Below are positions 968 through 30,521 of a stretch of 37,031 bases of DNA, one piece after another; position 1 is the stretch's first letter; each line of letters starts with the position of its first letter. The stretch is from the NCBI GenBank assembly GCA_003602635.1, contig QQSJ01000002.1, positions 1-37,031 of the forward strand, in the 5' to 3' direction. The notes beneath the pieces are model-generated. The model saw nothing but the letters and a program-made list of their open reading frames with translations, did not search any database and was not told where the DNA came from. Both the position numbers and the translations under genes were made by a program. Source of the DNA: Candidatus Poseidoniales archaeon (GTDB lineage Archaea > Thermoplasmatota > Poseidoniia > Poseidoniales > Poseidoniaceae).

Positions 968-2107
968 TCAGCGGTCGGTCTCCCCGATGCATGGATCGAA
1001 GCTGCCCATGATGGCAGGAATGTCGGCCACCTTGTAGCCGATCATGGTCTCCGCCACGAATGGGATGGTGATGAACATCGGCGAGCGGATGGAAAGGCGG
1101 TACGGGTTCTTGCCACGTCCTTCGCCGCCGCCATGGATGTAGAATTGGCTGGCGCCGCGGGTGCACTCGTAGTTGCTGAACCCGGTGGCTCCGGCAGGGG
1201 CTCGGGTTGGCGCCTTGGCGAGGATCATCTCGTCGCCGTTGGAGTAGGTCGTGTTCTTGCCGCCGGGAATCTTCTCGATCGCATCGAGGATCATTCGGCA
1301 CGACATGCGCATTTCTTCCATCCGAACGCGGTAGCGGTCGTAGCAGTCGCTGCCCTTGACGCTGGTTGGCTTCTCCACGGCCGGCTCCCAGTCCAGTTGG
1401 TCGTACACAGAGTAGGGATGAGACCAGCGAACGTCGTAGTTGACGCCGGAAGCGCGAACGTTGGGGCCGGACACACCGGACTCCACCATGCTCTCAGCGG
1501 TCGCGTAGCCCACACCTTGCAGGCGAACCAGGAAGATGGTCGACTCGTCGAGGAGCATCTCGTATTCGTCGATGCGCTTCTCAAACAGCTTCACCTTGGC
1601 GATGAGGCGGTCGGCCCAGCCGGGTGGAATGTCGCGCTTGACACCGCCGATGCGGGGGTAGTTGTAGTGCATGCGGGAGCCGCCGAGTTCCTGAAGCAAG
1701 TCGAGGAACATCTCGCGCTCACGGAGCGCCCACGTCATGATGGTCAGGTTACCGACGTCAGGTCCGTAGGCACCGAGCCACATCAGGTGGCTGGCGATGC
1801 GCTGGCATTCCGCAGAAATGCAGCGGATGTATTCGGCACGCTCGGGCACTTCGACCTCGAGCAGGTCCTCGGCCGCGTAAATGTACGAATTCGACCAGGT
1901 CATGGCCGACACGTAGCACAAGCGGTCGCAGTACGGCGTGACTTGCGTGAAGTCGCGTGCTTCGGCGATCTTCTCGACGCCGCGGTGAATGTACCCAAGT
2001 TCTGCCTCGGCGTCGACGACGGTTTCACCGTCGACCTGAACGCGGAGCGTCCAGAGGCCGTGCGTCATGGGGTGCTGGGGGCCCATCGTGATCCACATCT
2101 TTGCCAT
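968..2107 (-). CDS. nuoD: NADH-quinone oxidoreductase subunit D (NuoD, 49-kDa type)
   Basis: This is the peripheral-arm subunit of the complex I-like enzyme. It descends from NiFe-hydrogenase large subunits and lines the quinone site with NuoB. The 379-aa product begins with the family hallmarks: GPQHPMTHG near residue 10, then AELGYIHRGVEKIAE. NSYIYAAEDL and an ending of GSFDPCIGETDR, close to the common D-P-x-x-G-x-x-D-R terminus, also fit. It is a separate gene here, not fused to nuoC as in some bacteria. A GGAGGTG site lies 6 nt upstream of the ATG, and nuoC ends 12 nt before it, so translation is within an operon. Length is typical for the family. Confidence 0.96.
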   Translation of the reverse strand: MAKMWITMGPQHPMTHGLWTLRVQVDGETVVDAEAELGYIHRGVEKIAEARDFTQVTPYCDRLCYVSAMTWSNSYIYAAEDLLEVEVPERAEYIRCISAECQRIASHLMWLGAYGPDVGNLTIMTWALREREMFLDLLQELGGSRMHYNYPRIGGVKRDIPPGWADRLIAKVKLFEKRIDEYEMLLDESTIFLVRLQGVGYATAESMVESGVSGPNVRASGVNYDVRWSHPYSVYDQLDWEPAVEKPTSVKGSDCYDRYRVRMEEMRMSCRMILDAIEKIPGGKNTTYSNGDEMILAKAPTRAPAGATGFSNYECTRGASQFYIHGGGEGRGKNPYRLSIRSPMFITIPFVAETMIGYKVADIPAIMGSFDPCIGETDR

Positions 2108-2119
2108 GATGACACCTCC

Positions 2120-2773
2120 TCACTTGACCCGGCCCTCGTCGACCGGCTTGCGGACGAAGCCTTGGGCGTCGTCGTACATCTCATTGTAATCGTGATAGCG
2201 GATTTTGTGCTGCTTCTGCAGCGGGTGAAATCCGTCGGGGCTGTCGTGCGGGTTGAGCACGCGGAACATGTTGTCGTGGCCGTCGAACTTGATGCCGACA
2301 AGGTCCCACGTTTCCTTTTCGTTCCAGTCCGCGCCGCGCCAAACGGATTGGACGCTGGGCACGCGAGGGTCGTCGCCTTGGGGAAGGGGCACGAGCATCT
2401 CGATTTCGAGGGGCATGTCCATGCCCGAAAGGTCACCGGCCACGAGCACGTGGGACGTGTTCGGCTCGGGATTGCTGACGGGCATGCGCTGGAGGTGGTA
2501 GGCGACCTCCCAGCCTCGCTGGTCGTCGCCTTCGGGAAAGTGGGTGCCGGTCACCATGGAGCAGTAGTTCACGCCCATGTCGTGCTTGAGGCCCTTGGCC
2601 ACGGTCAACACGTGAGGGGCTGGAACGGTGAGGCGGAGAAAGGCGTAGCCGTGACCGGCGGTGTGGTTGACCGACTCGGCCACCACGCCGAGGGCGGACC
2701 AAGCCTCTTCGGCTGCGGAGACGCTTGCGGCCACGGCCGCTGCGTTCTGTTCGGCGCTGATGCTCATGCCCAT
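2120..2773 (-). CDS. nuoC: NADH-quinone oxidoreductase subunit C (NuoC, 30-kDa type)
   Basis: This is the small scaffold subunit of the peripheral arm, which packs against NuoD. The 217-aa product holds the 30-kDa subunit signature near residues 148-175 ([19 protein letters not shown], then an arginine), a variant of the usual E-R-E-x-[DE]-[LF]-x-G-[IV]-x-F-x-x-H pattern. The C-terminal 40 residues ([16 protein letters not shown] and onward) are polar, as expected. The start at 2773 follows a GGAGGA ribosome site by 7 nt; a second ATG two codons later is possible. The gene begins 2 nt after the nuoB stop, so the two are almost certainly cotranscribed. Confidence 0.92.
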
Positions 2774-2775
2774 GC

Positions 2776-3369
2776 TCAGTCCTCCCCCACGATGAGCGGC
2801 TTCTCGCCGGCGCGGCCGGCGTCTGGAGCGCCGCCGATGCGGATGATCTTCTCACGCAACAGGCCAAAGCCGTCGATGAGCGCCTCGGGGCGAGGCGGGC
2901 ATCCGGGGATGTAGACGTCAACAGGAATGACCGTGTCAACGCCTTCGAGGATGTTGTAGGACTGGAAGTACGGCCCGCCGGAGATGGCGCACTCGCCCAT
3001 GGCGATGCAATACTTCGGCTCTGGCATCTGCTCCCACAGACGAACGATGGGGTCAGCGAACTTCTTCGACACTGGGCCGTTGACAAGCAGCACGTCGCTC
3101 TGGCGAGGCGAGGAGCGGAAGATGACGCCGAATCGCTCTGCGTCGAAGCGGGGAATGGCCGAGGCGGCCATCTCGATGGCGCAGCACTTGATGCCGAGGT
3201 GGAGGGTGAACAGCGATTTGCGACCGGCCCAGTTGAAGAAGCGGCCGGCCAACACCGACAAGAATTGCTTGAGGCGCGTGGCCTTCAGAGACTCGTCCGT
3301 AACGTCGCCAACGAAATCGAGCAAAGCCGAGCTGTTGAACGCGGCGTAGTTTTGTCCTGGTTCGCTCAT
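2776..3369 (-). CDS. nuoB: NADH-quinone oxidoreductase subunit B (NuoB)
   Basis: NuoB carries the terminal 4Fe-4S cluster (N2) that passes electrons to quinone. In this 197-aa protein all four expected cluster ligands are visible: the adjacent pair in GIKCCAIEM, the cysteine in [10 protein letters not shown], and the one in [15 protein letters not shown]. The spacing and surrounding residues match the family. A GAGGTGA site precedes the ATG by 6 nt. It sits between nuoA and nuoC in an A-B-C-D-H order. The N-terminal 50 residues are poorly conserved in this family and give no further information. Confidence 0.96.
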
Positions 3370-3378
3370 GTGTTCACC

Positions 3379-3846
3379 TCAGATGTAGATGCGGCCGCGC
3401 TTGCGGAACACGTGCCAGACGCCAAGCGTCATGATGGAGAAGAAGGCGGCCAGCACGAGCAAGCGGCTGATCGCGGTCTCAAGGTCACCGTCCGTGGTGG
3501 CGGTGGCGTCGTTGATCACAAAGCCTCCAAGCGCCATGAACATGAACGCGACGTCGAACACCAGGAAAATCAGCGCATACCAGTAGTATTGGAAGTGAAA
3601 TTGAATCATGGCGTCGCCGACAGGCTCAGAGCCGCACTCATAGGTCGAAAGGCGGCGCGGGTAGAGGCTGTGGTCGGCCTCGTACCCCTCGAGCAAGTAC
3701 GAGGTGGTCTTGTGCGGCTGAGAACGGTCGGTCCGTGGCCGGACAAAGTACGACGTCAGAAAGGCGCCAAAGGGCACGAGAAAGCCGACAAGCGTCATCA
3801 ATCCGACAGCGAGGTAGGCATCGGTCACCGTGGTCACGTCGGTCAT
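3379..3846 (-). CDS. nuoA: NADH-quinone oxidoreductase subunit A (NuoA)
   Basis: This is a three-helix membrane subunit at the junction of the two arms of complex I. The 155-aa product has a first helix at about residues 10-32, a charged loop with the family signature STYECGSEPVGDA, and then FHFQYYWYALIFLVFDVAFM forming the second helix; a third helix lies near residues 125-145. The loop cysteine is part of the ECG-x-[DE]-P motif that changes exposure during turnover in studied complexes. It is the first gene of the nuo operon visible here. The ATG at 3846 has no strong ribosome site. The 157-nt region upstream holds a palindrome and a TATA-like stretch. Confidence 0.95.
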   Translation of the reverse strand: MTDVTTVTDAYLAVGLMTLVGFLVPFGAFLTSYFVRPRTDRSQPHKTTSYLLEGYEADHSLYPRRLSTYECGSEPVGDAMIQFHFQYYWYALIFLVFDVAFMFMALGGFVINDATATTDGDLETAISRLLVLAAFFSIMTLGVWHVFRKRGRIYI

Positions 3847-3924: not shown

Positions 3925-3945
3925 AATTTTTAGGGCGCCCTAAAA
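3925..3945 (-). promoter_or_regulatory. Perfect 18-bp palindrome with TATA-like flank upstream of nuoA
   Basis: Positions 3928-3945 read TTTTAGGGCGCCCTAAAA, an exact inverted repeat. Read on the minus strand, the CCCTAAAAATT half makes a plausible TATA region, which would place the transcript start near 3900 and leave a leader of roughly 55 nt for nuoA. A palindrome overlapping a TATA box is the expected geometry for a repressor operator in archaea. The TTAGG/CCTAA half-sites resemble those of DtxR-type metal regulators, but that link is inference. The sequence TTTTTAGG occurs again near phnD and the Fea1-like gene, and TTTTAGG occurs before phnC. Confidence 0.5.
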
Positions 3946-22829: not shown

Positions 22830-23543
22830 ATGCAGCGCCAGGGTGTTGTGGCCGCAGAAGAGGCGCTTGCTTCTGGACAAGCCAGAGCCATCCTGGTTCT
22901 GAAGGACCACGACCAGCACATTGCAGGCTTGTGCGAGCAAGCCCGGGCCGCAGGCGTCCCGATTCACGAGATCACCGAGCGCGACATGTGGAGGATGGCG
23001 CAACCCGGTGGCGAATCCTCACCGCGCGTGTTGACCTTGGTGGGCCGGGACCCAGAGGTTGCAAACGTAGAGGAACTCGTGACGCGTGGTGGCCTCCTGC
23101 TGTGCCTCGATGGTGTCGCCTATGCGGGTAACATGGGGTTCTCAGTGCGCACCGCGGAAGTCGCAGGTGCAGCGGGCGTGGTGCTGGCCACCGACCAACC
23201 GATTCCCGGCCGTGCATGGAAGGACCTCCGTCACAGCAGCATGCAAGCGACGCGTTTCATCCCCGTCGTGGAAGGCCGCATCGAGGGGATCATCGCATCA
23301 GCCAAAACAGCGGGATTCCGCATCGTGGCGGTTGAAGACGTTGGTAGCCACGACCTGCCAGAGGTGGATTTGACCGGCGATGTGATCGTGATCGTTGGGG
23401 CCGAAGCCGAAGGCGTCAGCGCCACGGCCCTCGAAGCGGCGGATGCCGTGGTGCGTTTGCCGATGCATGGCTTCGTTCCGTCCTACAACCTCCAGGTGGC
23501 GGTGGCCTGCGCTTGTGTGGAAGCCGCCCGTCAGCGGCGGTGA
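22830..23543 (+). CDS. SpoU/TrmH-family RNA 2'-O-methyltransferase
   Basis: The family transfers a methyl group from S-adenosylmethionine to a ribose 2'-OH in rRNA or tRNA through a knotted SPOUT fold. The 237-aa product has an N-terminal substrate-binding part (VVAAEEALASGQARAILVL) and the three SPOUT motifs: NMGFSVRTAEVAGAAGV (residues 101-117, with N101 and R107), IVGAEAEGVS (about 188-197) and LPMHGFVPSYNLQVAVA (about 210-226). Which nucleotide it modifies cannot be told from sequence; both 23S rRNA Gm and tRNA Gm enzymes look like this. The frame extends upstream to 22794 without another standard start, so the ATG at 22830 is the simplest choice. No ribosome site is visible. Confidence 0.92.
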   Translation: MQRQGVVAAEEALASGQARAILVLKDHDQHIAGLCEQARAAGVPIHEITERDMWRMAQPGGESSPRVLTLVGRDPEVANVEELVTRGGLLLCLDGVAYAGNMGFSVRTAEVAGAAGVVLATDQPIPGRAWKDLRHSSMQATRFIPVVEGRIEGIIASAKTAGFRIVAVEDVGSHDLPEVDLTGDVIVIVGAEAEGVSATALEAADAVVRLPMHGFVPSYNLQVAVACACVEAARQRR

Positions 23544-23577
23544 CGGCCAAACGCCTCTTAGGCTCCCGAGGAAGGGG

Positions 23578-23585
23578 TTTTAGGG
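23578..23585 (+). promoter_or_regulatory. TATA-like TTTTAGGG element before phnC
   Basis: TTTTAGGG sits in a GC-rich surround, centred about 26 nt before a GTG at 23606. That is the right spacing for a leaderless transcript beginning at the GTG. The same core appears before phnD and the Fea1-like gene and inside the nuoA palindrome, so it may be a shared regulatory box as well as the TATA element. Confidence 0.45.
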
Positions 23586-23605
23586 AAGGCGAAATCCGAC
23601 AAAGC

Positions 23606-24280
23606 GTGGACGACGAAGCGATGCTGTCCACCCGCGGGCTGTCCGTTGGATACGACCATGCGTTGGTATCGGACATTGACTTGGACGTCTTTCCGGGCGA
23701 CATCATCGGAATCATCGGGGCTTCAGGAATCGGAAAAACCACGATTTTGAGGACCTTGGCCGGCTTGATCCCCCCGTTCCAAGGCAACCTCGAGCACTCC
23801 CTTGTGAAGAACGGAGAATTGGGCTACATCCCTCAGCGGCTTGGCCTCGTTCGTCACGCTTCCGTTGAACACAACGTCGCCTTGGGAGCACGGGCCACCG
23901 CACGCAAGCCGCCGGAGGGCACTTCGTCGGTTCGTCAGTGGAAAGCAACGGTCACCCACGAAGCGATCAAAGCGATGGGGTTGACCGAGAAAACCCGTGA
24001 ACCGGTCCGGCGGCTCTCAGGTGGTCAACAACGCCGTACCGCCACCGCACGCACCCTTGCCCAGCGGCCTCGCATCATCCTCGCCGATGAATTTCTCAGT
24101 GAACTCGATGCAGAAAACGTCGAGATGGTGTTTGGCGCCATCCACCGGCTTGTGAAGGAAGACGGCTCTGCCTTGGTGGTGGTCGAGCACAACGTCGAGC
24201 GCGCGTTCAGGTATTGCACGCGGGTGCTTCGGGTTCGCGACGGTCGACTGCACCCTGTTCAGGGCGGTGAGAGCGAATGA
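23606..24280 (+). CDS. phnC: Phn-type ABC transporter ATP-binding protein (PhnC-like)
   Basis: This is the ATPase of an importer that also includes PhnE- and PhnD-like proteins. From the GTG at 23606 it has 224 aa; an ATG at 23621 is the alternative start. All ABC motifs are present: Walker A GASGIGKTT (about 38-46), a Q-loop in LGYIPQRLG (about 72-80), the signature RLSGGQQRRTATA (about 136-148) and Walker B RIILADEFLSELD (about 156-168), followed by a switch histidine in VVEHNVERA. Spacing resembles the phosphonate transporter class. The gene overlaps phnE by 4 nt (ATGA). The transported substrate need not be a phosphonate; no C-P bond cleavage genes are visible in this window. Confidence 0.88.
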   Translation: MDDEAMLSTRGLSVGYDHALVSDIDLDVFPGDIIGIIGASGIGKTTILRTLAGLIPPFQGNLEHSLVKNGELGYIPQRLGLVRHASVEHNVALGARATARKPPEGTSSVRQWKATVTHEAIKAMGLTEKTREPVRRLSGGQQRRTATARTLAQRPRIILADEFLSELDAENVEMVFGAIHRLVKEDGSALVVVEHNVERAFRYCTRVLRVRDGRLHPVQGGESE

Positions 24281-25185
24281 ACCGGGGCACCCTCAACATT
24301 GGGCTGCTGACGTTCGGCCTGCTGCTGCTGACGGTGGTGGTCCTGAACGATTTGGCCGTGGGACAATGGTCGCGCTTTGAGGGAGGATGGGACAACCTTC
24401 GTCGTCTGGTCACAGAAAGCCTCTGGCCACCGGATTGGACGGTTCTGAAGGCACGCAATTACCCGGTCTGTGAAGCTGCCTTTGGTTTCATGTGTTCCAA
24501 AGCCTACCTTGGGATGCTTGAGACCCTCAAAATGGCCTTCGTAGGAACCGTGATCGGTTTCCTTGGAGCCATCGTGTTGGCGCCTCTGGCAGCGAGCAAC
24601 CTCGCGCCTTCATGGGTCGGAGGGCCTGCCCGCCTCCTTTTGGCCGGCATGCGCAGCCTTCCCAGCATCATTTGGGCCATCCTCTTCGTGGCCATCGTCG
24701 GCCTGGGGCCGCTCGCTGGCGTTCTCGCCATGGCCTTCTACACCGTGGGCTACCTCGGCAAACTCCAGTTTGAGTCCTTTGAAGGGCTGGCCAACGGACC
24801 CATCGAAGCGGCCCGAGCCATGGGGATGAACCGGACGGAGACCTTCCTTTTCGTGGTCATTCCCGAATCTGCGAACGGGTTGATCAGTCAACTGTTGTTC
24901 ATGTTCGAATACAACGTCCGGCATGGCAGCGTGCTTGGATTGGTGGGGGCAGGTGGCATTGGGTACTACCTGTCGTATTACCTCGGATTCCTTCTCTATG
25001 ACGCCGTGATGGCGCTCATTCTGGTCATTTTCGTGGTCGTGGTCGCCATTGAAGCCGTCTCACGACGGCTTCGTTCCTTCCTCTCGGAATCCGATGACGT
25101 CCCCAAAGCCAGTTGGATTTCCGTCCTCATGAGCCCCGACCGTGCCGCGGCGGCTGACGCCACGTCGACGGACGCTGAGGTATGA
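24277..25185 (+). CDS. phnE: Phn-type ABC transporter permease (PhnE-like)
   Basis: This membrane channel subunit of 302 aa has about six predicted helices. The first is at 6-24; an external segment with two cysteines (YPVCEAAFGFMCSKA) follows, then the conserved permease core begins (YLGMLETLKMAFVGTVIGFL). The cytoplasmic coupling loop is clear: EAARAMGMNRTETFLFVVIP near residues 184-203, followed by RHGSVLGLVGAGGIGYYL, a phrase typical of PhnE proteins. The C-terminal 35 residues are polar. It starts inside the end of phnC. The order ATPase-permease with the binding protein on the opposite strand is unusual for this transporter class. Confidence 0.92.
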   Translation: MNRGTLNIGLLTFGLLLLTVVVLNDLAVGQWSRFEGGWDNLRRLVTESLWPPDWTVLKARNYPVCEAAFGFMCSKAYLGMLETLKMAFVGTVIGFLGAIVLAPLAASNLAPSWVGGPARLLLAGMRSLPSIIWAILFVAIVGLGPLAGVLAMAFYTVGYLGKLQFESFEGLANGPIEAARAMGMNRTETFLFVVIPESANGLISQLLFMFEYNVRHGSVLGLVGAGGIGYYLSYYLGFLLYDAVMALILVIFVVVVAIEAVSRRLRSFLSESDDVPKASWISVLMSPDRAAAADATSTDAEV

Positions 25186-25194
25186 GGTAGGAGG

Positions 25195-25507
25195 GTGAGC
25201 GAACGCGGCCTCGCGGCCCTGCTCATCGCCCTGATGACGGTGCCCCTGTTGGCCCACACGGCCCCCTACGTCTACGGAAATCCCAAGGAGCCGAGCACGG
25301 TCTTTGCTGCACCCTTACCTCACCTTGCAGGGGCTGCTCATGGTCGGCTGCTTGGCCACGTTGGCCTTTGCACCGTCCTATCCACGGTTGGTGTTTGCAC
25401 TGTCCTACAACGCCCTCTTTGCCGCGTTGCAGGTGATGGTCGGCGCGGCAGTGGTCCTGCTGGTGATGCGGCAGGAACGAAGGCATCAGATGGCGCTCAC
25501 TGCGTAG
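25195..25507 (+). pseudogene. Small membrane protein gene broken by an apparent +1 frameshift
   Basis: A GTG at 25195, preceded by AGGAGG, starts a frame reading SERGLAALLIALMTVPLLAH and then TAPYVYGNPKEPSTV. Near 25303 the plausible coding frame changes: the +1 frame continues with LLHPYLTLQGLLMVGCLATL and two more hydrophobic helices and stops at 25507. Removing one T from the TTT at 25303-25305 would join the parts into a protein of about 103 aa with three helices. The original frame instead runs into a low-hydrophobicity stretch to 25644 over the antisense gene. It lies 9 nt after phnE, so it probably belongs to that operon. A sequencing or assembly error is as likely as a real mutation. 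The overall look resembles small DUF3311-type membrane proteins, but that is tentative. Confidence 0.55.
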
Positions 25508-26682
25508 ACGCCACCCGTCCAACTGGACAGCAGAATGGCGCCGTCTTCCGCCACCGCCAAGCCCACGATGAACAGGTTCGTTGTGGCGATAAGGGTGGAT
25601 TCGATGCCCGAATCACCGGGATGGGCCACCCAAACCTCGCCTGAGCAAAAGTCGCCGTAAAGGAACCCGCCGGTGGGAGCCAGCACGGACGGCTCAAGCC
25701 ATGGACCACCGAGAATGGAACAGCGGCCGTCCTCATGGCCGTAGGTCAAGACCGGGTCGACCAGACCCTCCCCTGGTTCAGTGAGCGGTGTGTCGCAGGG
25801 TGCGTCGGCCGAAAACGGCATGTGCCCTTCGCGTTCGTTCCATCCAAAATTGGTCGGATCATCCCACGACGGGATGTGGTTCACTTCCTCCCAACACCAT
25901 TGGCCAACGTCGGCGATCCACAATCCTCCGGTTGGATCTAGGGCCATGCGGAACGGATTGCGAAGACCATGGTGAAGCAGGAACCCATCGTGGTCGTCGT
26001 GGTCGCCGGAAACGTTGCTTGCGGATACGGCTGAACCGTTGTCGATGGAAAAGTGGAGGATGCCACCAAGCAGCGAGGAGGTGTTTTGCCCGTGCCCGTA
26101 GGGGTCGTTGGAACCTCCACCATCGCCCACGGACAACAGGAAACTGCCGTCCGCCAACCTGATCAGGTCAGCTCCGTTGTGGTTGCGTTTGACCTGTGGA
26201 AGCCGCAGCACAACCTCTGGAACGGCGTCCAGGCCTTGCTCAAGGTCGAGGACGGCCACCACCACATCCGACACGTGCGAAGGGTCGCAAGGGCCTGCCT
26301 CGACGTAGACGATCAGGGCTTGATTGGTGCTTTCGTTGGCGTTCATGGCTTCGAAGGCAAGCAGGCCCTGTTCGTTGTGGCAGGTGCTTACCAATGAGGT
26401 CAGGTTGACCGAGATTTGTGCCTCGTTCTCAGCCCAACGAGCGATGGTCCCGTCCAGCATGCTGACGATGACGTCGGCTCCAAGAGGAGCGATGTCAATC
26501 ACCGCAGCCGACGTCTCCAGCCGCAGATCGCAGCTGAGGTTGTGTCCTGACGTGAGTTCACAACCGCTGATTGGCTCGGGCTCTGGCCACTCAAACGCTG
26601 GAGGAGATTCCTCCTCCGCAGGGCCGAGGCACCCGCTCAGCACGGGCAAGACCAGCATCAAGCCCAACACGATTGGGCGCAT
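25486..26682 (-). CDS. Glucose/sorbosone dehydrogenase-like (PQQ-type beta-propeller) lipoprotein
   Basis: The 398-aa product starts with a lipoprotein signal (LVLPVLSGC, cysteine near 18) and folds as a beta-propeller of the soluble aldose dehydrogenase family. Visible marks are KRNHNGADLIRLADGSFLLS, VGDGGGSNDPYGHGQN, and GLRNPFRMALDPTGGLWIAD followed by VGQWCWEEVNHI. Family members with these motifs often bind PQQ and calcium and oxidise sugars outside the membrane, but some homologues have lost activity, and cofactor use cannot be confirmed here. Additional cysteines (about six) may form disulfides. It follows phnD by 26 nt on the same strand, so both are likely in one transcript. Its last 22 nt overlap the end of the convergent small membrane gene. 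Confidence 0.88.
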   Translation of the reverse strand: MRPIVLGLMLVLPVLSGCLGPAEEESPPAFEWPEPEPISGCELTSGHNLSCDLRLETSAAVIDIAPLGADVIVSMLDGTIARWAENEAQISVNLTSLVSTCHNEQGLLAFEAMNANESTNQALIVYVEAGPCDPSHVSDVVVAVLDLEQGLDAVPEVVLRLPQVKRNHNGADLIRLADGSFLLSVGDGGGSNDPYGHGQNTSSLLGGILHFSIDNGSAVSASNVSGDHDDHDGFLLHHGLRNPFRMALDPTGGLWIADVGQWCWEEVNHIPSWDDPTNFGWNEREGHMPFSADAPCDTPLTEPGEGLVDPVLTYGHEDGRCSILGGPWLEPSVLAPTGGFLYGDFCSGEVWVAHPGDSGIESTLIATTNLFIVGLAVAEDGAILLSSWTGGVYAVSAI

Positions 26683-26708: not shown

Positions 26709-27830
26709 TCAGTTGGCGATTTTCTCATTGAAGTAGGCTTCAATCCCAGGCACGTTCTCGATGGAGTCACCGTAGGTCCCGAGGTGGGACTCGGTGTCAA
26801 TGATGGTGAACCCTGGCGTGCTGAAGACGGCATCGAGGACGTCAAGGTCCGCTTGGCTGCCGCCGTCGTTTGGCCCGAGGCTCATCGTGCGGAGGGCTTC
26901 CTGCAGTGCGGTCACCTGTGCCGCGTCCATGTAGGCTGGGTTGAACATCACAGGATGGCTGGGGGCTCGTCCGAGTCCGTCACCGCCGTTGGCGCTGTAG
27001 TTCACGCCGTGGAAATCCGCGGTGCTGTTGAAGTCGCCTTCGAAGCACCAGTCCTCGGGCGTCTCACCGCAATAATCGGGAACGGTGGGGTCCTTGGCGA
27101 AGGAGATGTAGTCGGTGGCATCGCCGGTGCTGTGTTCAGCCAAGCATCGGAGGGAACCGATGTACTTGTGATAGCGCGTGCCGCTGGAGGGAATGGACGA
27201 ATCCTCTGAGAAGTGGTTGCGGACCGTGTCGGTCAAGGAATCAATCGTGTCAGGGTCACCGACGACTTCGACGTAGCCGTTGCTGATCATGAAACCCATC
27301 GGAAGCAGCATTCCGGAGCTGCCCAGGGCAGAGGTGTGGCACGAGACCTTGCCTTCCATGAGGGCGAAGGGGTCGGTGTCAGGGTCATCGTCAAGATCGG
27401 CCTGAGCGATGTCCGAATCCACGTGGACCCATGCAATCGCCTTGTAGAAGGGGCGACCGTCTGCCTTCTGTTCAGCAGCGAGGACTTCAAGCCCGTGGGT
27501 TTGCCAGCTAAGCCATGCAGCCCCGCCGTCCATGAAACCGATGTCAGCGTGTCCGAACCGCAAGGCCTCAATGGCGCCTGCAGCGCTGGTCACGGGGTAA
27601 ATCTCAACCTCCATGCCCAGAAGTTCAGCAAGACGGTCGGCAAACTCCTGGGGGTTTTCCTCCGTGTTCTGATACTCCTCTTTGGTTTCGAAGGCGATCG
27701 TCAAGCAGTTGTCTTGGTCTTCGCAGGTTGGGAAGCTCACCGAACTGGAAAGGCAACCCGAAAGCCCTGCTGAAACCATGACGAGGCACATCAGGAGGGC
27801 GTGAACAGCGGGAAGGGCGGCGCGAATCAT
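26709..27830 (-). CDS. phnD: Phn-type substrate-binding lipoprotein (PhnD-like)
   Basis: This is the binding component of an ABC importer. The 373-aa product has a lipobox (VSAGLSGC, cysteine 26). It then follows the PhnD/PBP type II fold: LAELLGMEVEIYPVTSAAGA, IEALRFGHADIGFMDGGAAW, a GKVSCHTSALGSSGMLLPMG block that normally contacts the ligand, and a C-terminal helical end. It differs from common PhnD proteins by several extra cysteines (TCEDQDNC, YCGETPEDWC) and a long acidic insertion. The ATG at 27830 lies about 25 nt after a CTAAAAAG box, so it is probably leaderless. It is divergent from the Fea1-like gene with 139 nt between them. The substrate is unproven: phosphonate, phosphite, phosphate ester or a metal-related ligand are all open. 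Confidence 0.88.
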   Translation of the reverse strand: MIRAALPAVHALLMCLVMVSAGLSGCLSSSVSFPTCEDQDNCLTIAFETKEEYQNTEENPQEFADRLAELLGMEVEIYPVTSAAGAIEALRFGHADIGFMDGGAAWLSWQTHGLEVLAAEQKADGRPFYKAIAWVHVDSDIAQADLDDDPDTDPFALMEGKVSCHTSALGSSGMLLPMGFMISNGYVEVVGDPDTIDSLTDTVRNHFSEDSSIPSSGTRYHKYIGSLRCLAEHSTGDATDYISFAKDPTVPDYCGETPEDWCFEGDFNSTADFHGVNYSANGGDGLGRAPSHPVMFNPAYMDAAQVTALQEALRTMSLGPNDGGSQADLDVLDAVFSTPGFTIIDTESHLGTYGDSIENVPGIEAYFNEKIAN

Positions 27831-27850
27831 GGGTTGCCCACAGGAGGTCT

Positions 27851-27930
27851 CTTTTTAGGACTTGCGAAATATCCTGCTTTTCGTCCATCCTTAACCAAGT
27901 TACTAAGATGACTTTTCTCATTTTTAGGGC
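27851..27930. promoter_or_regulatory. Divergent control region with two TTTTTAGG boxes between phnD and the Fea1-like gene
   Basis: Within the 139-nt divergent region, TTTTTAGGA occurs at 27852-27860 and TTTTTAGGGC at 27921-27930. The first, read on the minus strand as CTAAAAAG, lies where the phnD TATA box should be. The second lies about 20 nt upstream of a separate TATA box for the Fea1-like gene. ATTTTTAGGGC is shared letter for letter with the nuoA upstream region. The region is also much more AT-rich than its surroundings. Joint regulation of both genes is a reasonable inference. Confidence 0.5.
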
Positions 27931-27940
27931 AGACGAAAGA

Positions 27941-27947
27941 TTATACC
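27941..27947 (+). promoter_or_regulatory. TATA box for the Fea1-like gene
   Basis: TTATACC begins 29 nt before the ATG at 27970, with its centre about 26 nt upstream. This matches leaderless transcription. No ribosome site precedes the ATG. Another ATG at 27951 is in a different frame. Confidence 0.55.
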
Positions 27948-27969
27948 AAAATGCCGATTCAGGCCGTCC

Positions 27970-29109
27970 ATGACGAAGACCATTCGTGCCCTTGCCCTGA
28001 CACTGACCTTGCTCCTTGCTTCCCTTGCGGGTTGCGTTGCAGAAGACGACTCAACGACCCCCGCCGAGGAGGTCAAGCCTGAATTCCTGGACGCATCCGA
28101 CGCCGGATACACCTACGCGTCCGACGTGGACAACCACCGTTCGCTGATGCTGGACCTCTGCGACATCAAGACCGCAGCCAGCGAAAGCGACTGGGACACC
28201 GCCACCCAGATCTACATGAACGGCAAGAACGCTCAGAAGGACGACGGTTCCTTCCGCACGCTCGCTGGATTCGCTGCCGCCTCCGGCAAGAACCACAACT
28301 ACGACGCGTACTACGGCATGGACGGCGCCATCGGCGGCCACATCATGCAGGCGCTGAACGGTGACGGTGATTTCGCCGGCACCTCGGACACCGTCCGCTA
28401 CCAAGGCATCGCTAAGCTGACCGCCAACATGGGCATGGTCGGCTACACGATCCACGAGATCAACGCCGCTGTGGCCAAGGCTGACGCCGGCAACATCGAC
28501 GACGACACCGGTGCACCTCACAACTGGGACGAAGGCTGGGCCTTCTTCCACGGACCGGATGAGCACTACGGTTGCTCTCCTGCCAAGGTCATGGAAAAGC
28601 GAGCCGCTGATTTCGGCACGGCCGACGCTGACGGCGTTGCTGCGACCTTCAAGGCCACCGAGCAAGCCATGGTCGACGGACTCGCCGCCCTCCAAGCGGG
28701 CGACGAAGCCGGCTACGACGCAGCCGCCGAGACCGTGATGAAGAACATCATCATCACCTACTCCCAGGCGACGCTGAAGTACACCTCCAAGATGGACAGC
28801 ACCGACAGCGCCGAGAAGTACCAAGCCGAAGGCTATGCCTTCTGGAAGACCATGGAGGCCTACAGCGCTGAACACACCAATGCATGCATCAATGCGGATG
28901 GAAACGTGACGTACGTCGGAAACGGAGACGCCACCACGTGCGGTGAAAACGAATCTTTCGACGCCCACTACGGAGCAGACAAGATCAACGAAATCCTCAA
29001 CCTTTCCGACGCTTCAATGCAGGGAACGTCATACGACGTGGCTCCGCATCTAGAGATGGTGTGGGCTCACTACGGCATCACGGAAGCCGACATTGGTTCA
29101 ATGGCCTGA
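27970..29109 (+). CDS. Fea1/phytotransferrin-like iron-assimilation lipoprotein
   Basis: The 379-aa product starts with a lipoprotein signal (LLLASLAGC, cysteine 22), so it should sit on the outer face of the membrane. The mature part resembles the algal Fea1 (low-iron-inducible periplasmic protein) family in several ordered places: an early IYMNGKNAQKDDGSFRTLAG region, VGYTIHEINAAVAKADAG, the block NWDEGWAFFHGPDEHYG followed by KRAADFGT, TYSQATLKYTSKMD, AEGYAFWKTMEAYS and an ending HYGITEADIGSM. Known relatives (algal FEA1, diatom ISIP2A phytotransferrin) bind ferric iron at the cell surface. I recognised this from memory of family patterns, not a search. It is divergent from phnD and shares a control region with it. 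Four late cysteines may pair. Confidence 0.72.
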   Translation: MTKTIRALALTLTLLLASLAGCVAEDDSTTPAEEVKPEFLDASDAGYTYASDVDNHRSLMLDLCDIKTAASESDWDTATQIYMNGKNAQKDDGSFRTLAGFAAASGKNHNYDAYYGMDGAIGGHIMQALNGDGDFAGTSDTVRYQGIAKLTANMGMVGYTIHEINAAVAKADAGNIDDDTGAPHNWDEGWAFFHGPDEHYGCSPAKVMEKRAADFGTADADGVAATFKATEQAMVDGLAALQAGDEAGYDAAAETVMKNIIITYSQATLKYTSKMDSTDSAEKYQAEGYAFWKTMEAYSAEHTNACINADGNVTYVGNGDATTCGENESFDAHYGADKINEILNLSDASMQGTSYDVAPHLEMVWAHYGITEADIGSMA

Positions 29110-29240: not shown

Positions 29241-30521
29241 TCAGGCAAAGTCGAGGTCGATTTTCTTCGGCCCACGAATGCTGAGGATCTTCACATCGAT
29301 GGTCTTGCCCACGGCGTAGAACATGTCGATGTGGTCCATGCTCATCCCGTCCATCTTCGAAATGTGGACCATGCCGGTGACTTGCCGCTCGACCAACGCG
29401 ACCAACAAGCCGTGGAAATCGTCCTTCTTCCGACCTTGGTGGTTGACCACCGTGCCGGTGTAGGTTCCTCCCACTTCGAAGGCCGTGAGCGGATCGACGG
29501 TCTCCGTGTTGTCGCCATCGGATGGGGGCGTCACGTCCTCCCAACGAAACTTTGCTTCGTTGCCGAAGAGCACCTTTCGGACATGCTCGATGGGGTACGT
29601 ACCCTCGCCGTCGATGCCTGAATCGTCCCAAGGTTGGGTGTGCCGAACGGTCAGGCCAGGCGTCATGTCTTCCGTGACCTTCGAGCCGTCCCGGCGGTGG
29701 AAGGTGACGGTAAGGCGAGGGCCGCGAAACAAGGTGGAGAAGAACCCGCCATCCACGGCGATTTCAACGGCCGAGTGGTCCGCACGAGTCCACCCTTTTG
29801 GAAAATCAGCGTCAATGAAGTCCCCTGTGTGGCGCTGGCCGCCGTCAAAGGTCAGCACGTCCCACGTACCGAACCGCCGCAGCAAGGCGTCTTGACGGGC
29901 GATTTCCTCGTCGCTTGCGGGCTCCCGCGTGGCCAAAAGGGCCTCGATCTTGGCAGGAAGGTCCGCCACCGTCGACACCTCTGGGTGCGCCAACACCTCC
30001 TCGCTGAGGTTCCCCTTCGGATTGGCCAGCACCACGATGGGGAGGACTTCGAGCATCTCAACGCGATCGATGGACAGCGAACAGCGCTGCAGCATCCGGA
30101 CCTTGGCCCGCAGTTTTTCGATGACCGGCTTGGGCGGCTCGCCCTTGTCGAGCAAGCGCTGTTGCACCAGATCGTTGTCTTGCAGATGGACGTCTCCGCC
30201 CCAGTTCTTGACTTCGAGCAGAATCACGGCCCGGTCGGTGATGGCGATGACGTCGACTTCACCCGAGCCCCGCGGTCGATCTGGATCGGGGATTCGGATG
30301 GCCAGATGCACATGCCGCGTGCTTTTGACGCGCTTCGCGGCCGCGCCCACGGCGTGCTCCGCTTTCCAAGAGCGGACCTCGCGCTGGGGCATGTGCTCTC
30401 GACGGGCGGACCGGGTGGAACGCCACCAGCCGATGCGCGCCAAGGGCCCCATGGCAGGACAACCGAACCACTCCATTTGAACCGCGTGCCCACCCGTGAG
30501 ACGGCCAGGGGGCACCGTCAC
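29241..30521 (-). CDS. NERD (nuclease-related) domain protein fused to an S1 RNA-binding domain
   Basis: The longest frame gives 426 aa from a GTG at 30521, which overlaps the desaturase stop as GTGA. The first 43 residues look atypical, so ATG starts at 30476 or 30392 are real alternatives. The N-terminal part is a NERD domain: RGSGEVDVIAITDRAVILLE then VKNWGG, giving the nuclease-like D90, E103 and K105. A middle region of about 200 residues is of unknown type. The last 75 residues are an S1/OB fold (VGGTYTGTVVNHQG, HGLLVALVERQVTGMVHISK, VGKTIDVKILSI). NERD proteins are thought to act on nucleic acids, and S1 binds RNA, so an RNA-directed nuclease or sensor is plausible. It is last in a run of overlapping lipid-type genes, perhaps only by position. 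Confidence 0.83.
   Translation of the reverse strand: MTVPPGRLTGGHAVQMEWFGCPAMGPLARIGWWRSTRSARREHMPQREVRSWKAEHAVGAAAKRVKSTRHVHLAIRIPDPDRPRGSGEVDVIAITDRAVILLEVKNWGGDVHLQDNDLVQQRLLDKGEPPKPVIEKLRAKVRMLQRCSLSIDRVEMLEVLPIVVLANPKGNLSEEVLAHPEVSTVADLPAKIEALLATREPASDEEIARQDALLRRFGTWDVLTFDGGQRHTGDFIDADFPKGWTRADHSAVEIAVDGGFFSTLFRGPRLTVTFHRRDGSKVTEDMTPGLTVRHTQPWDDSGIDGEGTYPIEHVRKVLFGNEAKFRWEDVTPPSDGDNTETVDPLTAFEVGGTYTGTVVNHQGRKKDDFHGLLVALVERQVTGMVHISKMDGMSMDHIDMFYAVGKTIDVKILSIRGPKKIDLDFA

Follow-up and report, generated by a model that had tools for sequence, protein, structure and literature searches.

Marine Group II (Poseidoniales) are among the most abundant archaea of the surface ocean, and their iron acquisition is scarcely described in the literature that we searched. 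The locus considered here raises the question of what a relative of the algal Fea1 proteins does in such an archaeon. The window analysed is a stretch of 37,031 nucleotides from a Candidatus Poseidoniales archaeon (contig QQSJ01000002.1), and an earlier note, made from the sequence alone, had proposed that one of its lipoproteins traps iron at the cell surface. The best explanation, and one that we consider likely, is that the protein traps Fe(III) at the surface, is repressed by iron and supplies ABC importers.

The FEA1-Related Lipoprotein

The FEA1 gene (27970..29109, + strand) encodes 379 aa from its ATG, with the lipobox cysteine at residue 22. PF07692 (Fea1) matches residues 45–280 significantly, at 89.6 bits and an E-value of 2.7e-25 against a gathering cut-off of 25, and the NCBIfam equivalog NF038033, "FEA1-related lipoprotein", matches residues 26–377 at 308.6 bits and 5.3e-92 (cut-off 250). 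The two profiles bear out the family assignment of the earlier note, and all the phrases that it quoted (NWDEGWAFFHG, KRAADFGT, TYSQATLKYTSKMD, AEGYAFW and HYGI-x-x-x-D-I-G) are found in this frame. The interval given there, 27831-29109, stands as to the frame itself, but its first 139 bp (27831..27969) are noncoding and form a divergent promoter. The lipobox reads LAGC, and its cysteine is invariant across 48 aligned relatives, as expected of the 379-aa lipoprotein that had been claimed; the protein is predicted to carry a secretion signal and a surface anchor. The Fea1 of a congener is 83% identical.

Because NF038033 exists, the family is already named by NCBI and is not newly found here. 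The name comes without a function, and no study of the role of the family was found in the literature searched; the links to operons, to a transferrin and to iron boxes are the additions made here. The likeness to the algal FEA1/ISIP2a phytotransferrins consists of the domain match over residues 45–280 and of the predicted secretion and surface anchoring, whereas the archaeal protein has a lipid anchor in place of a transmembrane helix and has a single domain. Algal members of the Fea1/ISIP2a family are induced by low iron, and Ot-Fea1 is iron-loaded (PMC4855317).

The AF2 model of the protein is mainly helical (pLDDT 91.8, pTM 0.90). Foldseek returned nothing better than E 1 in the PDB, the top Z score in VIA was 7.1, to unrelated helical bundles (imelysin 3n8u had a Z of 5.5), BFVD gave no confident match, and no solved relative of Fea1 or phytotransferrin was found by sequence. 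We do not call the fold new because the PDB, VIA and BFVD searches may have missed a relative. An alignment of archaeal Fea1 with a bacterial relative (L217, see below) shows that they share H56, D62, E163, H184, D187, E188, E287, Y271, R96, R143 and R211. These residues are candidates for binding a metal or an anion, the first eight being candidates for carbonate-dependent Fe(III) binding. Some FEA1 proteins (L063, L074 and L088) are 550–618 aa long and have extra Cys-rich repeats of the C-Y-N-x-V-x-H type before the C-terminus, which are possibly extra metal sites.

The Divergent Neighbor is a Transferrin Homologue

The gene divergent to FEA1 (26709..27830, − strand) encodes a lipoprotein with the features of a transferrin lobe and of an ABC substrate-binding protein (SBP); we call it TF. 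It matches PF00405 (transferrin) at 32.8 bits (cut-off 20.3) and PF12974 (phosphonate-binding) at 80.3 bits, and it scores 45.9 bits against the PhnD equivalog, under the cut-off of 261.1. When the single sequence is searched with phmmer, transferrin-family chains come first (lactoferrin at 1.7e-11), and HtxB/PhnD come later at 2.6e-4. With a profile of 27 sequences, lactoferrin is reached at 1.9e-37, and the transferrin family makes up all of the best 60 chains listed. The top Foldseek matches of the AlphaFold model (pLDDT 85.9) are melanotransferrin at 2.2e-12 and the lactoferrin C-lobe at 5.9e-12. In VIA, transferrins align over 280 residues with a Z of ~21 and an rmsd of about 4, and PtxB/HtxB tie with them.

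In the alignment, D101, Y129, Y223 and H292 fall on the Asp-Tyr-Tyr-His iron ligands of transferrin, which we take to be Asp63, Tyr95, Tyr188 and His249 in human numbering. T166 falls on the anion-site Thr120 (SCHT motif), and C164/C229 fall on C118/C194. Of the single-lobe proteins compared, 25 of 27 at FEA1 loci and 12 of 12 at loci lacking FEA1 retain the full set of four ligands; both cysteines are kept in the window protein and throughout the 27 and the 12. The anion-site Arg124 is absent, being Gly here and Lys in most single-lobe relatives. Because of this Gly, we term the protein a transferrin homologue and not a typical transferrin. As read from the alignment, it is a transferrin homologue with intact predicted iron ligands, and it probably serves an import pump.

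The neighbor thus has in common with animal transferrin, lactoferrin and melanotransferrin its sequence, its fold, the D/Y/Y/H ligands, the Thr of SCHT and the C118/C194 pair. It is unlike them in being a single lobe, in its lipid anchor, in the Gly or Lys at Arg124 and in its link to an ABC permease. With the SBPs PhnD, PtxB and HtxB it shares the PF12974 match, the fold and PhnC/PhnE-type partners, but it falls under the PhnD equivalog and has the transferrin ligands and cysteines instead. Many Poseidoniales transferrin proteins are two-lobed and ~700 aa long (for example, L066:13359-15494). The lobes within one such protein are 19–61% identical, consistent with an archaeal duplication. Their ligands have often decayed, being intact in the N-lobe of 8 and the C-lobe of 3 of 22 two-lobed relatives.

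A review (PMC7676907) credits McQuaid 2018 with tracing both ISIP2a and transferrin back to phosphonate-binding periplasmic proteins. That connection is therefore already known, and the same work may cover part of the kinship with transferrin. No description of an archaeal transferrin or of an archaeal Fea1 system was found in the literature searched, in which McQuaid 2018 is represented by the review.

Gene Neighborhood and Importers

The TF gene is followed by a gene for a glucose/sorbosone dehydrogenase-like (GSDH) lipoprotein (25486..26682, −; PF07995), and this order, with GSDH 3′ of a single-lobe TF gene, is conserved. At 2–4 kb from TF lie a PhnC-like ABC ATPase (23513..24280, +; the probable true start is the ATG at 23621) and an ABC permease of the PhnE family (24277..25185, +). 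The permease scores 235.5 bits against TIGR01097 (cut-off 216.7), and the ATPase scores 129 bits against the PhnC equivalog, under its cut-off of 266.1. In the window, FEA1 itself lies outside any importer operon; the next gene (29241-30521, −) is on the opposite strand. That gene encodes a NERD nuclease-related domain fused, unusually, to an S1 RNA-binding domain at the C-terminus, and a similar gene lies downstream in the related locus L123.

The relatives show two layouts. In one, the order is FEA1-(two-lobed TF)-PhnC-PhnE, and a TF-GSDH pair lies nearby. In the other, the order is FEA1-(CarboxypepD_reg protein)-Peripla_BP_2-FecCD-FepC-flavodoxin-HugZ/CREG. In two close relatives of the window, L123 and L127, a FecBCD operon comes after FEA1. 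Where the sequence extends 8 kb or more to each side of FEA1 (30 loci), a TF, PhnE or FecCD gene is no more than 10 kb away in 27; we estimate the chance expectation at a few per cent, given 1–2 TF genes per ~1.5 Mb genome. The first same-strand gene 3′ of FEA1 is the leader of a FecBCD operon in 26 cases, TF in 18, flavodoxin in 9 and PhnC in 5. The phytotransferrin (pTF) gene cluster of diatoms includes a CREG protein (PMC7972479), and in this it resembles the archaeal FEA1 operons that have a HugZ/CREG-fold protein.

The second layout lends itself to a different reading, in which Fea1 assists the uptake of haem or siderophores by FecB-FecCD-FepC and HugZ/CREG and holds a chelate, not inorganic Fe(III). 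Many relatives do have FEA1 first in an operon of Peripla_BP_2, FecCD, FepC, flavodoxin and HugZ/CREG-family genes. However, many other loci have FEA1 directly 5′ of TF, PhnC and PhnE with no FecBCD genes, and the constant feature across loci is the iron box described below, not the FecBCD set. We consider the accessory role unlikely, and we keep to a surface trap for Fe(III) that would feed more than one kind of importer.

Iron-Box Operators

The sequence TTAGGNNNNCCTAA is the published IdeR/DtxR consensus (PMC8464063). A perfect copy lies 5′ of FEA1 in 71 of 78 relatives, which are not 78 independent events because related genomes share ancestry, and 5′ of 23 of 28 single-lobe TF genes. Perfect boxes number 181 in the 1.24 Mb of FEA1-relative loci as against 0–1 in Markov shuffles, and in these loci, they never occur 5′ of internal operon genes such as PhnE and FecCD. 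In the FEA1 promoters of the relatives, the TTTMGG-N4-CCKAAA palindromes overlap or flank BRE/TATA-like sequences. Whole genomes of 1.5–2.2 Mb contain just 2–5 distinct perfect TTTMGGN4CCKAAA sites; those of one genome (G022) include sites 5′ of TF, of both FEA1 copies and of flavodoxin.

In the window, the palindromes at these genes are degenerate. The divergent TF/FEA1 promoter contains TTTAGGACTTGCGAAA (27854..27869, +), which is at the orthologous position in L123, L124 and L127, and TTTAGGGCAGACGAAA (27923..27938, +), which abuts a BRE/TATA-like ATTATA 5′ of FEA1. A third, TTTAGGGAAGGCGAAA (23579..23594, +), precedes the probable start of PhnC by 27 bp. A perfect palindrome, TTTAGGGCGCCCTAAA (3929..3944, no strand assigned), lies 5′ of the complex I genes nuoA-B-C-D (968-3846, −), and it is conserved at the matching locus of the congener G111 (L228). 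Its position suggests a possible iron control of complex I, which would make these genes an iron-sparing target. The predicted control of FEA1 and TF by an iron-type switch in the relatives points to iron scavenging as the probable role; the degenerate boxes at FEA1, TF and PhnC here weaken the case for the window itself.

The genome of the window (G000) encodes an untyped DtxR-family gene (G000:C19). The DtxR family includes manganese sensors, and the operator might accordingly belong to another member, such as an MntR-like one, with the set being a manganese or general metal regulon. Against this, the flavodoxin, transferrin-lobe, FecCD, HugZ/CREG and complex I genes are iron-type targets, and the box matches the consensus of an iron regulator (PMC8464063). 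We regard a manganese regulon as quite unlikely, and we take the switch of the Fea1 system to be a predicted iron repressor.

Perfect boxes were also observed at other genes. One is 5′ of a DeoC/LacD-family aldolase gene of the congener (L231:1501-2715; G111:C52), and it recalls the iron-responsive class I FBA that diatoms have (PMC7972479). Another, present in both G000 and G111, adjoins a gene for a small Cys-rich zinc-ribbon-like protein of 88–119 aa (L220/L225, near 1501), which in G000 matches no Pfam family.

A Proposed Mechanism

The surface iron role that the earlier note proposed is strongly supported by the context, namely, the transferrin-homologous neighbor and the iron-uptake operons and IdeR/DtxR-type boxes of the relatives. 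In the mechanism that we propose, lipid-anchored Fea1 would trap Fe(III) at the cell surface, perhaps with carbonate. We know of no endocytosis in archaea; without endocytosis of the diatom type, a pump must follow the trap. Iron would then be handed from Fea1 to the SBP of an ABC importer, which here would most likely consist of the divergent transferrin-lobe lipoprotein and the PhnC/PhnE-like ATPase and permease 2–4 kb away. In the relatives, iron from Fea1 may also go to the FecB-FecCD-FepC system. The substrate of the ABC system would be iron rather than phosphonate, and when iron is plentiful, a DtxR/IdeR-type repressor would shut the genes. The sequence itself supplies the family, the lipobox, the transferrin homology and ligands of the neighbor, the conserved operons, the operators of the relatives and the DtxR-family gene.

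Some observations run counter to this. FEA1 of the window is outside an importer operon, and the perfect box is at complex I, while those near FEA1 and PhnC are degenerate. The neighbor also matches PF12974 (80 bits), the permease passes the PhnE cut-off, and Arg124 appears as Gly. FEA1 is also patchy in the order. That the ABC genes encode a conventional importer of phosphonate or phosphite, which Fea1 adjoins for unrelated reasons, is nevertheless very improbable, since the PF12974 score of the SBP, the PhnE-level permease and the equal alignment of PtxB/HtxB and transferrins in VIA are set against an SBP and an ATPase that fall well under the PhnD and PhnC equivalogs, four retained transferrin iron ligands and boxes of the IdeR/DtxR type.

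On the iron trap reading, the locus combines a trap at the cell surface, a receptor of the transferrin type, a pump and a predicted switch in one concrete system. It supplies marker genes for archaeal iron stress and makes the sensitivity of archaeal iron uptake to carbonate, and hence to ocean pH, testable. For work on how transferrins arose, the neighbor offers a prokaryotic relative recognizable at the sequence level. A stronger proposal is that the single- and two-lobed transferrin-lobe lipoproteins of Poseidoniales are working ABC-receptor transferrins, among the closest prokaryotic kin of animal transferrin, and form one iron-repressed system with a lipid-anchored phytotransferrin. We give this an even chance; if true, both eukaryotic strategies for surface iron coexist within one archaeal regulon.

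Distribution

Of 149 Fea1-related database loci, the best 80 are from MAGs and single-cell genomes of Poseidoniales or "Euryarchaeota", except for three bins with bacterial labels. Because these loci are nearly all of such origin, the marine archaeon suspected in the earlier note is confirmed as one of the Poseidoniales (Marine Group II). Three MAGs labelled Rhodobiaceae, Rhodobacteraceae and Dehalococcoidia (L160, L176 and L187) hold Poseidoniales-like contigs with Fea1 or TF that look like misbinned Poseidoniales. Contamination as the source of Fea1 and TF was rejected, as both recur across many Poseidoniales MAGs and single-cell genomes. Spread by phage, plasmid or virus is unsupported because searches of phages, plasmids and viral contigs for Fea1, and of viral contigs for the transferrin-lobe protein, gave no relative.

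Within the order, Fea1 is patchy, with 39 of 145 genomes over the NF038033 cut-off, and the 34 of 389 genomes of the phylum that pass PF07692 are all within the order. PF00405 is matched in 125 of 145 Poseidoniales genomes and in 113 of 389 genomes of the phylum, nearly all of them Poseidoniales. It was not matched in the control genomes, nor among 298 genomes of the phylum of the Rhodobacteraceae-labelled bin except for the misbinned genome. Likewise, among 329 genomes of that phylum, only the misbinned genome itself matched Fea1. A search of 281 genomes from the phylum to which the Dehalococcoidia-labelled bin belongs gave one further clear Fea1 (G796), a 386-aa lipoprotein of ~26% identity that scores 85.7 bits against PF07692. 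Fea1-related lipoproteins are encoded at L217:1821-2978 and L218:3-494, in two genomes of the same phylum; an SBP near the latter did not type as an iron one and was left out of the evidence on iron context. Fea1 seems to be genuine but rare in that phylum.
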